Shown in pieces: positions 34,643 through 38,345 of a stretch of DNA of 64,000 nucleotides; positions within the stretch are counted from its first letter, which is position 1; each line of letters starts with the position of its first letter. The notes under the pieces are model-generated. The model had not been told where the DNA came from, did not search any database, and was given only the letters and a program-made list of their open reading frames with translations. This DNA is from Bacillus nitratireducens (GTDB taxonomy: Bacteria > Bacillota > Bacilli > Bacillales > Bacillaceae_G), in the NCBI RefSeq assembly GCF_001884135.1, contig NZ_MAOC01000069.1, positions 1-64,000 on the forward strand, read 5' to 3'. The translations under genes were made by a program, and so were the position numbers.

Positions 34643-35413
34643 ATGGGCAAATATGTTCCACTAAAATTTTTATTCAACGAAGAATTAGCAGAAAAAATGG
34701 CTGATTCTATTTGTAAACACGATCCTAATTTCTCTAAAATAAACTTTGTATCTTCCGTAACATATAAAGTTGAAAATTTAGAGTTAAAGCAACGTATAGA
34801 AGCCATAGCAGATGAATTACACAATGCATTACAAAAAGATTTTAATGAAGCAATACATATATTACTGAAAACATTGGGACCAGAAAATACAACAGAAGTA
34901 GGCACATTTACAAACGGATATATGTACATGCCTATCGCAAAATACGTTGAAAAATATGGGCTTAACGATTTTGAATCCTCTTTCAACGCAATGTATGAAA
35001 TAACAAAAAGGAATACTGCTGAATATGCCATTCGGCCTTTTCTTGAAAAATATCATGAAGACACACTAGACATATTACAACAGTGGATTCATGACGAAAA
35101 CAGCCACATTAGGAGATTAGTTTCAGAGGGTACTAGACCTAGACTTCCTTGGGCTAAAAAAATAGGAGCTCTGAAAGGTGACTTTAGAAATAATTTAAAG
35201 CTACTTGAGCTATTAATGAATGACCCTTCTAAATATGTCCAAAAATCAGTAGCCAATCATATTAACGATATTACAAAAGAAGATAAAGAACTCGTTTTTC
35301 AATGGTTACAACAATTACGTGATAAACAGCTTCCTGTTAACCCTTGGATTATAAAACATGGGTTAAGAACGGTGATAAAAAATGGTACTTTACCAAAAGA
35401 TTTTTCTTTTTAA
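34643..35413 (+). CDS. DNA alkylation repair protein, AlkC-like (HEAT repeats)
   Basis: A 256-aa helical protein. The segment AEYAIRPFLEKY ... HDENSHIRRLVSEGTRPRLPW (residues ~132-180) is the signature of AlkC, the DNA glycosylase of the HEAT-like-repeat superfamily that removes N-methylated purines. Further repeats (NNLKLLELLMNDPSKYVQKSVANHIND) follow. GGGGTG ~5 nt upstream supports ATG 34643. It ends 12 nt before a strong terminator. It belongs to the AlkC/AlkD superfamily, and I favour AlkC. Confidence 0.85.
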   Translation: MGKYVPLKFLFNEELAEKMADSICKHDPNFSKINFVSSVTYKVENLELKQRIEAIADELHNALQKDFNEAIHILLKTLGPENTTEVGTFTNGYMYMPIAKYVEKYGLNDFESSFNAMYEITKRNTAEYAIRPFLEKYHEDTLDILQQWIHDENSHIRRLVSEGTRPRLPWAKKIGALKGDFRNNLKLLELLMNDPSKYVQKSVANHINDITKEDKELVFQWLQQLRDKQLPVNPWIIKHGLRTVIKNGTLPKDFSF

Positions 35414-35424
35414 GTATTTTAAAC

Positions 35425-35466
35425 AAAACGCTTATGCTTCAAAAATGAAGTATAAGCGTTTTTTCT
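35425..35466. terminator. Bidirectional terminator
   Basis: AAAACGCTTATGCTTCA and TGAAGTATAAGCGTTTT pair over ~17 bp (one mismatch), with TTTTTT on the plus side. It ends both the AlkC-like gene and the convergent DUF2716-like gene. Confidence 0.9.
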
Positions 35467-35476
35467 CTTTAAAACA

Positions 35477-35968
35477 TTAGCCCTGCCTTAAAATATTTTG
35501 AAACATTTCTGGCTTACTTTGTTCAAAGCTCTCTATTAATTCTTTTCCAAATATCGTTATACTCTTCTCCCAAGGATGGCCTAAATACCCCCACTTATAG
35601 TCCTTTTGAATAAAGAAATTGTAATCTCCATTTGGAAAAATCGGGATTGTCCACTCATCAAATTCATTTCTTTCAAACTCTATGTGTGGATTCACCCAGT
35701 AACACTCATGTTGCCAATCAAGTACCATAATATATTCATTCGCTGCTGTATTTTCTTTAAAAACTAGTAATGCTTTTTCTTCCAAATCATCATATACATT
35801 TAAATCTATCGATTCTCCAAAGTAATGAGAAATATCATATGTAACAAAAGGACTTGGCACTTTAAATGATGGGAATATAGAAATACTTGGTGAAAACTCA
35901 AAATCACTATATACCCTATCCCATATTTGATCGCTCTCTTTGTCTGTAAACTTCATCCAATTTTTCAT
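35477..35968 (-). CDS. DUF2716-like protein
   Basis: A 163-aa acidic, aromatic-rich soluble protein. The segments MVLDWQHECYWVNP and WGYLGHPWEKSITIFGKELI agree with my recollection of the DUF2716 family found in Bacillus and other Firmicutes. No catalytic motif is evident. A GAAGGCAG sequence precedes the ATG. It is monocistronic, divergent from the methyltransferase leader. Proteins of this kind are sometimes immunity-like, but nothing here proves that. Confidence 0.6.
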   Translation of the reverse strand: MKNWMKFTDKESDQIWDRVYSDFEFSPSISIFPSFKVPSPFVTYDISHYFGESIDLNVYDDLEEKALLVFKENTAANEYIMVLDWQHECYWVNPHIEFERNEFDEWTIPIFPNGDYNFFIQKDYKWGYLGHPWEKSITIFGKELIESFEQSKPEMFQNILRQG

Positions 35969-36043
35969 TAAACAACTGCCTTCCCTTATAATTTCAAAGG
36001 ATTTTCACTTAATTATCCCGAATATACAAATAACCATTCTCAC

Positions 36044-36163
36044 AAGGAGCGAATTTCTATGAATCTATTCGAACACGAAACGTAAAACCGCTTCACCTTA
36101 ATAAGAGGTCCTCCCTTTTTTCTCATCATATCACTCACTTTAAAAAATAGGAGGACATAATTA
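36044..36163 (+). promoter_or_regulatory. Candidate translational attenuator leader
   Basis: A strong ribosome binding site AAGGAG (36044-36049) serves a 9-codon frame (36059-36085). Downstream, GTCCTCC (36108-36114) is perfectly complementary to the methyltransferase ribosome binding site GGAGGAC (36150-36156). After a 2-nt internal loop, TTTTT/AAAAA extends the stem. The layout resembles erm/cat translational attenuators, where a stalled ribosome frees the second ribosome binding site. Confidence 0.5.
36059..36085 (+). CDS. Possible leader peptide MNLFEHET
   Basis: ATG plus seven sense codons and TAA, with AAGGAG 9 nt upstream. It precedes the sequestering hairpin of the methyltransferase gene. 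The peptide has no obvious amino-acid bias. It could instead be a chance frame. Confidence 0.35.
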   Translation: MNLFEHET

Positions 36164-36927
36164 TGAAACGTGATCCATTATTTTTAACTTTTTTAGAAAG
36201 TGCTAATACAAATTTTAGTGGCTGGGATTTTTCTTTCATTTCAGAAACTGGCCGTATGAATAGCGAGCCTTTATCATGGTCGTACGGTAGCACAGCCTTC
36301 CAGCTTATGCAGCATGCAGAATCAATGCTAGATATGGGAACTGGCGGCGGAGAGTTTTTATCTATGTTACAACCGTTCCCGTCAACTATTTATGCGACTG
36401 AAGGCTACGCTCCGAATGTACCAATTGCACGAAAGAAATTAGAACCTTTAGGAGTTACAATCGTAGAAGTTACGGATGATACTGCTTTACCATTTCAAGA
36501 TAGTCAGTTTGATTTAATTGTCAATCAACATGAATCCTTTTCTGCTTCTGAGGTGAAAAGAATTCTTTCCACCAATGGAACATTTCTTACTCAACAAGTT
36601 GGCGGTCTTGATTGTGCGGAGCTTAATGAGCAGTTTGGCACACCGCTGAATAGCGAATTTTCAAGTTGGTCACTCAAAATGGCATGTAATGAACTAAAGG
36701 AGAATGGATTTACTATTTTAGAAGCGAAGGAAGAATTCCCCCTTCAGCGTTTTTATGATGTCGGTGCTGTTGTCTATTACTTAAAAGCAATTCCGTGGCA
36801 AATTCCTGATTTTATAGTAGATTGCTATACCGAGGAATTGTATCGTATACATGAAATTATCTTACAAAAAGGATATTTCGATGTGAAGCAACACCGCTTT
36901 ATTATTAAAGCAAATTATGTAGAGTAA
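36163..36927 (+). CDS. Class I SAM-dependent methyltransferase
   Basis: A 254-aa soluble methyltransferase. Motif I is SMLDMGTGGGEFLSML (residues ~54-69), followed by acidic YATEGYAPN (motif post I) and FDLIVNQHESF (motif III region). The shape is of a UbiE/ Methyltransf_11 enzyme; the substrate cannot be read. GGAGGAC 6-8 nt upstream is strong but sits in a potential hairpin with GTCCTCC 36 nt earlier. The protein has no clear similarity in motif to Erm (no NPPF). It is monocistronic with its own terminator. Confidence 0.82.
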   Translation: MKRDPLFLTFLESANTNFSGWDFSFISETGRMNSEPLSWSYGSTAFQLMQHAESMLDMGTGGGEFLSMLQPFPSTIYATEGYAPNVPIARKKLEPLGVTIVEVTDDTALPFQDSQFDLIVNQHESFSASEVKRILSTNGTFLTQQVGGLDCAELNEQFGTPLNSEFSSWSLKMACNELKENGFTILEAKEEFPLQRFYDVGAVVYYLKAIPWQIPDFIVDCYTEELYRIHEIILQKGYFDVKQHRFIIKANYVE

Positions 36928-37721: not shown

Positions 37722-38345
37722 ATCGATAACATTAGTAGCGAATTTCTAAAACAATATTACGACAGCAACGTTTGGCTACATGGTACACACTGGTTCGGGG
37801 TTCCAATCTGCAAACTTCCTTCTGATCTTTTTTTGTACCAAGAGATCATTCACGAATTAAAACCCGATTTAATTATTGAATGTGGAACCTTCTATGGTGG
37901 TAGCGCACTGTATTTAGCTTCTATGTTAGATTTAATTGGAAAAGGTCATGTACTTACTATCGATATAACTCCGCAACCAAATCGGCCATCACATAATCGG
38001 ATTACGTATTTAACAGCCTCTTCTGTTTCTGTACAGGCGGTCCAAACAATATTAAGTATGCGCAAACCTGATGATGTGATTTTAGTTATTTTAGATTCTG
38101 ATCATAGTAAAGAGCATGTATCGAAAGAACTCTTACTTTATAAATCTATTGTCACCACTGATAGTTACATTATTGTAGAAGATACAAGTATTAACGGAAA
38201 TCCTCTCCTTCCTAATTGGGGCCCTGGCCCAATGGAAGCTGTAGAAGAGTTTTTAACTAAAAATAGTAATTTCATAATCGATGAATCTAAGCATAAGTTT
38301 TTCATCTCATTTAATCCAAAAGGTTTTTTAAAGAAGATAAAGTGA
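37722..38345 (+). CDS. CmcI-like SAM methyltransferase family protein, start codon ATC
   Basis: A 207-aa protein of the cephalosporin hydroxylase (CmcI)/class I methyltransferase group: PDLIIECGTFYGGSALYLASML (SAM-binding), VLTIDI, then VILDSDHSKEHV. The reading frame continues upstream of the first TTG (37833) with meaningful family-like sequence (WLHGTHWFGVPICKLPSDLFLYQE) to codon 37722. There an ideal AAAGGAG (8-nt spacing) points at ATC. No ATG/GTG/TTG exists between the in-frame TAG at 37704 and 37833. Either ATC initiates, or a former ATG mutated and the gene is weakened or dead. The C-terminus runs into bcr1-derived sequence that supplies the stop codon. Confidence 0.72.
   Translation: MDNISSEFLKQYYDSNVWLHGTHWFGVPICKLPSDLFLYQEIIHELKPDLIIECGTFYGGSALYLASMLDLIGKGHVLTIDITPQPNRPSHNRITYLTASSVSVQAVQTILSMRKPDDVILVILDSDHSKEHVSKELLLYKSIVTTDSYIIVEDTSINGNPLLPNWGPGPMEAVEEFLTKNSNFIIDESKHKFFISFNPKGFLKKIK

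Follow-up and report, generated by a model that had tools for sequence, protein, structure and literature searches.

A candidate stop-codon-gated translational attenuator upstream of a methyltransferase gene in Bacillus nitratireducens

Upstream of a class I S-adenosylmethionine (SAM)-dependent methyltransferase gene of Bacillus nitratireducens lies a short leader open reading frame (ORF) that ends at TAA. Continued past this stop, the frame of the leader encodes Arg-Gly-Pro-Pro (RGPP), and it does so in the anti-Shine-Dalgarno arm itself. The locus sits in a window of 64,000 nucleotides (nt), the whole stretch analysed here, taken from contig NZ_MAOC01000069.1; all coordinates are those of the window and refer to the forward strand. 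We regard it as probably a stop-codon-gated translational attenuator, in which an anatomy visible in the sequence would be worked by readthrough of the stop, ribosome arrest at RGPP and, most likely, a miscoding trigger. A first-pass annotation of this DNA had pointed to a leader with a strong AAGGAG, and to a GTCCTCC complementary to the GGAGGAC of the methyltransferase gene, and the sequence bears out all three. The features of the locus are as follows.

36044-36049, + strand: Shine-Dalgarno (SD) sequence AAGGAG of the leader ORF (from the sequence)
36059-36085, + strand: leader ORF 1, start ATG 36059-36061, peptide MNLFEHET 36059-36082, then TAA (from the sequence)
36083-36085, + strand: gating stop codon TAA, next base A (sequence and conservation)
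36086-36160, + strand: post-stop frame NRFTLI-RGPP-FFLIISLTLKNRRT, closed by TAA 36158-36160 (the leader's frame continued)
36104-36115, + strand: putative RGPP ribosome-arrest motif (AGA GGT CCT CCC), overlapping the anti-SD arm (in-frame motif, published arrest core)
36108-36114, + strand: anti-SD arm GTCCTCC (sequence, fold and covariation)
36150-36156, + strand: sequestered SD arm GGAGGAC of the methyltransferase gene (sequence and fold)
36163-36927, + strand: class I SAM-dependent methyltransferase gene, 254 aa, start ATG 36163, the putative controlled gene (Pfam, AlphaFold2, Foldseek)

The reading frame beyond the stop codon

Homologues of the methyltransferase were collected from plasmids (five loci fetched), from genome contigs (the best 80 of 272 relatives) and from whole genomes (16/16 genomes of earlier loci, 88/397 in one order, 42/296 in another and 21/291 in a class). 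For the genome contigs an alignment-based scan was needed, as a scan with the single window protein as query returned no relatives. With the window included, the set comprised 249 sequences, of which 204 were nonredundant; the window protein shares 51-64% identity with 13 aligned homologues. An architecture defined as a short ORF of any sequence, a stop and, after at most 16 codons, R[G/A/S]PP was found upstream of 99 of the 204 nonredundant homologues. The same test gave 0/204 on the reverse complement, 0/204 inside the gene and 1/1020 in single-base shuffles. L043 and a few other RxPP matches were set aside as chance.

The gating stop is TAA in all 99 leaders, whereas the stops of the methyltransferase genes at these loci are TAA (57), TAG (36) and TGA (6). 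The base that follows it is C in 52 leaders, A in 44, G in three and T in none, compared with A 51, T 22, G 18 and C 8 after the stops of the controlled genes. Two residues before the gating stop, 47 leaders have Glu and 28 Asp, against one Glu and no Asp at the 99 gene ends; Glu, Asp or Asn at this place was part of the selection of the Glu-His (E-H) subset described next, and 17 of the 26 other leaders also have Glu or Asp there.

A second set of leaders was chosen blind to the motif, on the pattern E-H-[E/D/N]-any codon-any stop. All 72 leaders obtained stop at TAA, and in 71 of them an RxPP lies within 75 nt past the stop, in every case in frame 0 and never in frames 1 or 2; the exception, L230 (the same place was also read as L367), carries an in-frame RDPP. 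Arms picked on nucleotides alone (G..CC.CC) were codon-aligned with the leader in 72/72 cases. Among the 71 distinct leaders the codon before the arm always encodes Arg (AGA 25, CGT 19, CGC 11, AGG 9, CGA 7), and the tetrapeptides are RGPP (67), RAPP (3) and RDPP (1). Their spacers, between the stop and the motif, hold no in-frame stop in 481 codons, against 6/410 and 8/410 in the shifted frames. For the class with six-codon spacers, single-base codon differences past the stop in 19 close pairs divide into 56 synonymous and 15 non-synonymous in frame, with ratios of 9:50 and 12:51 for the two shifted frames, counts that are not independent since the pairs share members. This synonymous excess amounts to protein-level selection on the region beyond the stop codon and, together with the conserved frame, leads us to conclude that the region is translated, most simply by readthrough of TAA.

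The same frame might instead be reached by hopping, frameshifting or re-initiation, without any decoding of UAA. We think this quite unlikely, given that ATG, GTG or TTG occurs in frame in only 1/99 spacers, that spacers can be as short as three codons and that selection runs through the spacer in the leader's own frame. What speaks for it is a hint of a decoding peculiarity: where the last sense codon before the gating stop encodes Ile, it is ATA in 54/54 cases, while the same genes use ATA for 344 of their 1473 Ile codons. An A directly precedes the stop in 85/99 leaders and 53/99 genes; the codon at this place in the window is ACG (36080-36082). The bias points to codon-level selection before the stop. 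A tRNA-hop bypass, suggested by the invariant ATA, was dropped, the spacers being generally without a matching landing codon when inspected by eye.

The hairpin and a proposed switch

Folding of RNA 36040-36170 with RNAfold, a check put forward in the first-pass annotation, returned exactly the stem claimed there with its UUUUU/AAAAA extension (-21.4 kcal/mol, z -2.07, 4/200 shuffles equally good), which taken alone is modest, suggestive support. In the minimum-energy folds of 93/99 leaders the SD of the gene is paired with the RxPP arm. For the 92 usable arms of the 99, which were registered from the fold, a procedure that favours pairing, wobble bases pair more often than in shuffled arms both at the second codon of the motif (61 vs 38.4) and at the second Pro codon (67 vs 43.9). 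The Arg codon pairs no better than shuffled (13 vs 25.8 at its first base), so pairing of the RNA does not explain the conservation of Arg. The proposal that relatives would show compensatory changes drew a divided answer. In alignment A4 (27 leaders), cells with two-sided change numbered 16 vs 9.1 in shuffles (2/500 as high) and the covariation score was 0.170 vs 0.077 (1/500), whereas two further measures, pairs with two-sided change (2 vs 2.5) and further pair types (9 vs 9.5), did not exceed shuffles. The outermost of the eight stem pairs is unpaired in 19/27 of these leaders, and RNAalifold run on the mixed alignment A5 gave no consensus pair. Judged from these comparisons, RNA pairing and peptide both look to be under selection.

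It might be supposed that the RNA does everything, with a hairpin that is fixed or controlled by RNA binding, and that RGPP is an accident of CCUCC complementing GGAGG. The stem is well supported and an in-frame CCUCC does encode Pro-Pro. That account is nevertheless scarcely credible: the phase of the arm is codon-aligned throughout the motif-blind leaders, spacers change length in whole codons and AGR/CGN exchanges, which involve no pairing, preserve Arg. Moreover, in 10/99 leaders the first Pro codon is CCA or CCG instead of CCT, which keeps Pro and costs the middle pair.

We propose that, in the basal state, translation would begin at ATG 36059, yield MNLFEHET and end at TAA 36083, with the hairpin 36108-36114/36150-36156 closed and the SD of the methyltransferase gene hidden. 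Failure of termination would trigger the switch, the most likely cause being decoding of UAA by a near-cognate tRNA under a miscoding antibiotic. A ribosome reading through would continue in frame, make NRFTLI-RGPP and stall, its P site occupied by Arg-Gly-Pro and its A site by the second Pro codon (36113-36115). It would then cover the anti-SD arm, so that the SD would be freed and the methyltransferase made. A ribosome-acting drug is the likely inducer; we infer that in cells a miscoding drug would bring about the readthrough, and that the methyltransferase would have a protective or drug-modifying role. Robust arrest is reported for RGPP and RAPP, with RDPP and RSPP partially permissive (PMC12992588), and RAPP/RGPP arrest is also published elsewhere (PMC10951233); by analogy, the RGPP of the window would be expected to arrest ribosomes as these peptides do. 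The gate, which combines UAA with a next base other than T and, in most leaders, a penultimate acidic residue, looks adjusted to hold tight yet to leak when required. In E. coli, no stop is reported to be tighter than UAA, and a T immediately following it to improve termination (PMC11126739), so UAA followed by a non-T base fits a tight off-state in a context short of the strongest.

The first-pass annotation had compared the locus with the inducible attenuators of erm and cat genes. The leader ORF with its anti-SD hairpin is strongly supported by conservation, but the site, and probably the manner, of ribosome sensing differ. It had also recognised no arrest motif in the peptide; there is indeed none inside MNLFEHET, but the conserved RGPP in the same frame beyond the stop was overlooked. 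In the classic arrangement a drug-bound ribosome would stall on the MNLFEHET codons or at their end, leaving the region past the stop untranslated. In its favour, leaders of the MsrDL type stall at their stop, and E-H stands at the same place before the stop in 73/99 leaders. Against it, a ribosome halted at the stop or earlier would be about 25 nt short of the anti-SD arm (36083 to 36108), and in relatives the spacer reaches 14 codons. The pre-stop peptides also differ widely between clades (MYIYFILYGV, MNPEGFI, MCYSFFNP, MPNQYEP and MYPYSHPT are examples). A stall within MNLFEHET is further disfavoured because it leaves the protein-level constraint past the stop, and with it the conservation of frame and Arg codon, without a reason. 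We therefore hold the classic arrangement very unlikely.

Some further observations concern the leader. An SD match of at least 4 nt precedes the ORF in 68/71 distinct E-H-type leaders, and in some Priestia-type leaders (L001, L002, L100) the start codon seems to be ATT, preceded by a good SD. In the fold of RNA 36040-36170, the leader's own SD (GGAGCG) also pairs with CGCTTC just past the stop (36046-36095). An Rfam scan of 35400-36400 gave no match at the gathering score, and a promoter and terminator scan of 35940-36170 found none.

The controlled gene matches Pfam PF08241 (35.1 bits), and its AlphaFold2 model has a mean pLDDT of 91.4. Foldseek matches of the model are class I methyltransferases, a fold common to very many enzymes, and the fold search singled out no substrate. 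A PDB sequence search gave three weak class I methyltransferase matches (best E 0.0005), and the score against the RlmA/TlrB 23S rRNA methyltransferase equivalog NF008300 was 19 bits, below the cut-off of 303. Some members from the class searched carry a GrpB domain fused to the methyltransferase (L214:991-2247, with L212:1012-2244 looking alike), and in L058:1315-1965 the methyltransferase start is preceded in frame by a GNAT acetyltransferase domain, the frame being interrupted thereafter. GrpB and GNAT are small-molecule-modifying folds, and the fusions fit, without proving, a drug-modifying or ribosome-protecting role. A homologue on a Niallia taxi megaplasmid is frameshifted (L003:1501-2249). 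A second, unrelated methyltransferase lies downstream in the window at 37728-38342 (PF04989, RMNT_CmcI).

Distribution of the leader and the nature of the signal

Spacer length, from stop to motif, is six codons in 47 leaders, three in 20, five in 12, 13 in 11, 14 in five, four in three and seven in one. On a FastTree tree of 198 of the 204 rows (six methyltransferase rows of less than 180 aa were omitted), a minimum of 15 changes in spacer length and of 20 in leader presence is needed, although the starred branches alone force fewer (10 for presence). The sisters L098 and L099 differ in frame by nine spacer bases. One branch of 123 rows, weakly supported, holds 93 of the 98 leader rows, and 70 of the 100 leaderless rows lie outside it. 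Among loci of at least 3 kb, no convincing family recurs near the methyltransferase in distant clades, and most neighbour clusters are clade-specific.

A covariance model of the leader (R1), searched against 299 genomes of one order, returned 55 places in 52 genomes, 37 of them known methyltransferase places; 13 of the 18 further places, all but five weak ones, were read. Four of these leaders (L279, L281, L282 and L283) precede genes for ANT(6) streptomycin adenylyltransferases (L279: PF04439, E 7e-126), two precede beta-lactamase-fold hydrolases (L280, PF00144; L286, by resemblance) and one, L284, an alpha/beta hydrolase. L288 has a leader and no clear first gene, and L285 and L287 showed nothing. 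By eye, intact leaders at the three remaining places (L262, L263, L272), and at L361, stand before apparently decayed methyltransferase genes.

A survey of ANT(6) genes found the gene in 61 of 199 genomes; 65 of 70 places, all but five fragments, were fetched, and the nonredundant set comprised 66 loci. The leader is present at eight of the 66, six by script (L279, L281, L282, L283, L321, L330) and two by eye (L310 and L314, the latter RDPP), although the first four of these had entered the set through the leader search. In another order, a leader search of 198 genomes (13 with a match) added the ANT(6) leaders L359, L360 and L368, and a plasmid of Metabacillus dongyingensis (NZ_OK052578.1, L370) carries one that reads MKKRFNKL, TAA, PIFNGLGLHHS, RAPP. 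The residues before the stop are E-H-F-[I/K/T] in the ANT(6) leaders L279, L283, L359, L360 and L368, and E-H-E-[I/T] in the methyltransferase leaders. The shared E-H suggests either movement of the leader as a cassette or a role of these residues at the stop. The similar elements at L300 (a TAG variant before ANT(6)) and L364 (TGA, before an ABC transporter) were doubtful and were left uncounted.

A sequence-only leader model (R2) matched 52 of 289 genomes, and the 30 loci returned were read; matches with E above 0.003, individually unconvincing, were kept only with the full architecture. One leader, L377 (E 1.7e-6), precedes an MFS transporter. Four with weak E values (0.003-0.026), resting on architecture, precede a 190-aa protein: L379 and L387 with RGPP, L392 with RSPP and L400 with RAPP. 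This protein (MSKP-x-MNVALVCGPD..) gave no Pfam, NCBIfam or meaningful PDB match; its FHG and GC motifs are reminiscent of caspase-like peptidases.

The case for miscoding drugs as the input rests mainly on the presence of the same leader before genes of a streptomycin-inactivating family. Classical work established that bacterial nonsense codons are suppressed by streptomycin. An identical anatomy could also serve another signal, sensing weak termination in general (shortage or inhibition of release factors, starvation, cold) rather than miscoding antibiotics, and a readthrough gate would respond to anything that slows release. Acidic residues two before the stop are reported to weaken termination, and 75/99 leaders have one there. 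UAA is read by both release factors, so such a signal would have to be general. Low temperature is also reported to raise readthrough in E. coli (PMC11126739). On the other side, the clearest companion family inactivates a miscoding drug, and the remaining companions look like hydrolases and a transporter; we therefore treat weak termination as a possible but doubtful input.

Several points weigh against the stop-gated, miscoding-triggered switch, in addition to the shared members of the close pairs. By the same test, 105/204 homologues lack the full architecture, and the remaining 30 leaderless rows of the tree lie inside the branch that holds most of the leaders. L183 has lost its leader while its sister L186 retains it, and the motif departs from RxPP in L080 (KGPP), L064 (RGSP) and L157 (LGPP). 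Most ANT(6) loci (58/66) have no leader, nor do the mobile genes str of S. aureus (L369) and ant(6)-Ia of E. faecalis (L371), each examined in one record. As to the signal, UAA is the stop least prone to readthrough, so that pronounced misreading may be required for induction. In E. coli, weakened termination is reported with G as the next base, and not with the C or A of the leaders (PMC11126739). Aminoglycosides cause misreading, but streptomycin is described as weaker than others for some mismatches (PMC7987974). Separately, on the E. faecalis plasmid L371 the gene immediately upstream of ant(6)-Ia bears the annotation class I SAM methyltransferase, without this leader.

Beyond the window, the balance of the evidence inclines us to a wider proposal. 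This would be a new class of genetic sensor, with stop readthrough as the input and a RAPP-type motif behind UAA as the trigger, used by Bacillota as a general alarm for miscoding or termination failure. It would serve scattered intrinsic antibiotic-inactivating and export genes (ANT(6), methyltransferase, beta-lactamase-fold and alpha/beta hydrolases, MFS transporter).

Comparison with known systems and significance

The closest relatives in mechanism would be the RAPP/RGPP arrest peptides (ApdA, ApdP, ApcA and the RQH family), which share the R-[A/G]-P-P core and in which, from the reported descriptions, a stalled ribosome opens RNA that hides a downstream SD (PMC12992588, PMC10987492, PMC10951233). 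In those systems, as described, no stop interrupts the ORF that holds the arrest sequence; a localization signal is often present, and protein localization is what the best-known members sense. In contrast, the leaders described here have an in-frame TAA before the motif in 99/99 cases, and the controlled gene is not a Sec factor. Unlike the RQH type, they appear, on length alone, too short for an N-terminal export or membrane signal (about eight residues before the stop and 3-14 after it). Upstream ORFs (uORFs) with RGPP or RAPP are reported absent from many Gram-positives including Bacillota, Actinomycetota excepted (PMC12992588), an absence probably due to uORFs being taken as uninterrupted frames. 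We lean towards the view that ORF-based surveys in general have missed the switch, the stop codon splitting the arrest peptide in two.

With erm and cat attenuators the locus shares a leader ORF, a hairpin over the SD of a resistance-type gene (for erm, likewise a methyltransferase) and likely induction through the ribosome by a drug. There, the drug causes the stall within the leader. Here, no arrest motif is recognised other than the one past an in-frame TAA; the signal, on our proposal, is passage of that stop, and the stall would be intrinsic. In prfB, which encodes release factor 2, the efficiency of termination at an in-frame stop is likewise a regulatory signal, but it acts through a +1 frameshift within the gene, with no arrest motif or attenuator hairpin known. 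The uORF of E. coli topAI-yjhQ resembles the present leader in that one uORF responds to several classes of ribosome-targeting antibiotic; it senses stalling at codons within the uORF, and the opening of that report's abstract mentions no stop-gated arrest motif (PMC12121999). In human AMD1, stop readthrough is followed by pausing caused by the extension, but that system is eukaryotic, its pause falls 384 nt downstream, at a second in-frame stop, and no SD hairpin is involved (PMC13025110). The aminoglycoside riboswitch proposed for integron cassettes shares the claim of aminoglycoside control over aminoglycoside-resistance genes (PMC7588185), although evidence against it has been published (PMC9410878); the element proposed here would be a translation-based sensor instead. 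In the open-licence PMC literature, searched by titles and the beginnings of abstracts, we found among the papers listed no description of a bacterial stop-gated arrest peptide or of a readthrough-controlled resistance gene.

If the proposed switch is correct, bacteria would use loss of translation fidelity itself as a signal for drug defence. Induction of genes against miscoding drugs would then be explained without a drug-binding RNA, a question left by the dispute over the aminoglycoside riboswitch. It would also place RAPP-type arrest peptides in Bacillota, where the published survey reported their absence from many members (PMC12992588). The motif (short ORF, TAA, R[G/A/S]PP, anti-SD) offers a search handle for uncharacterised resistance-type genes, and the switch gives the methyltransferase family a testable function.
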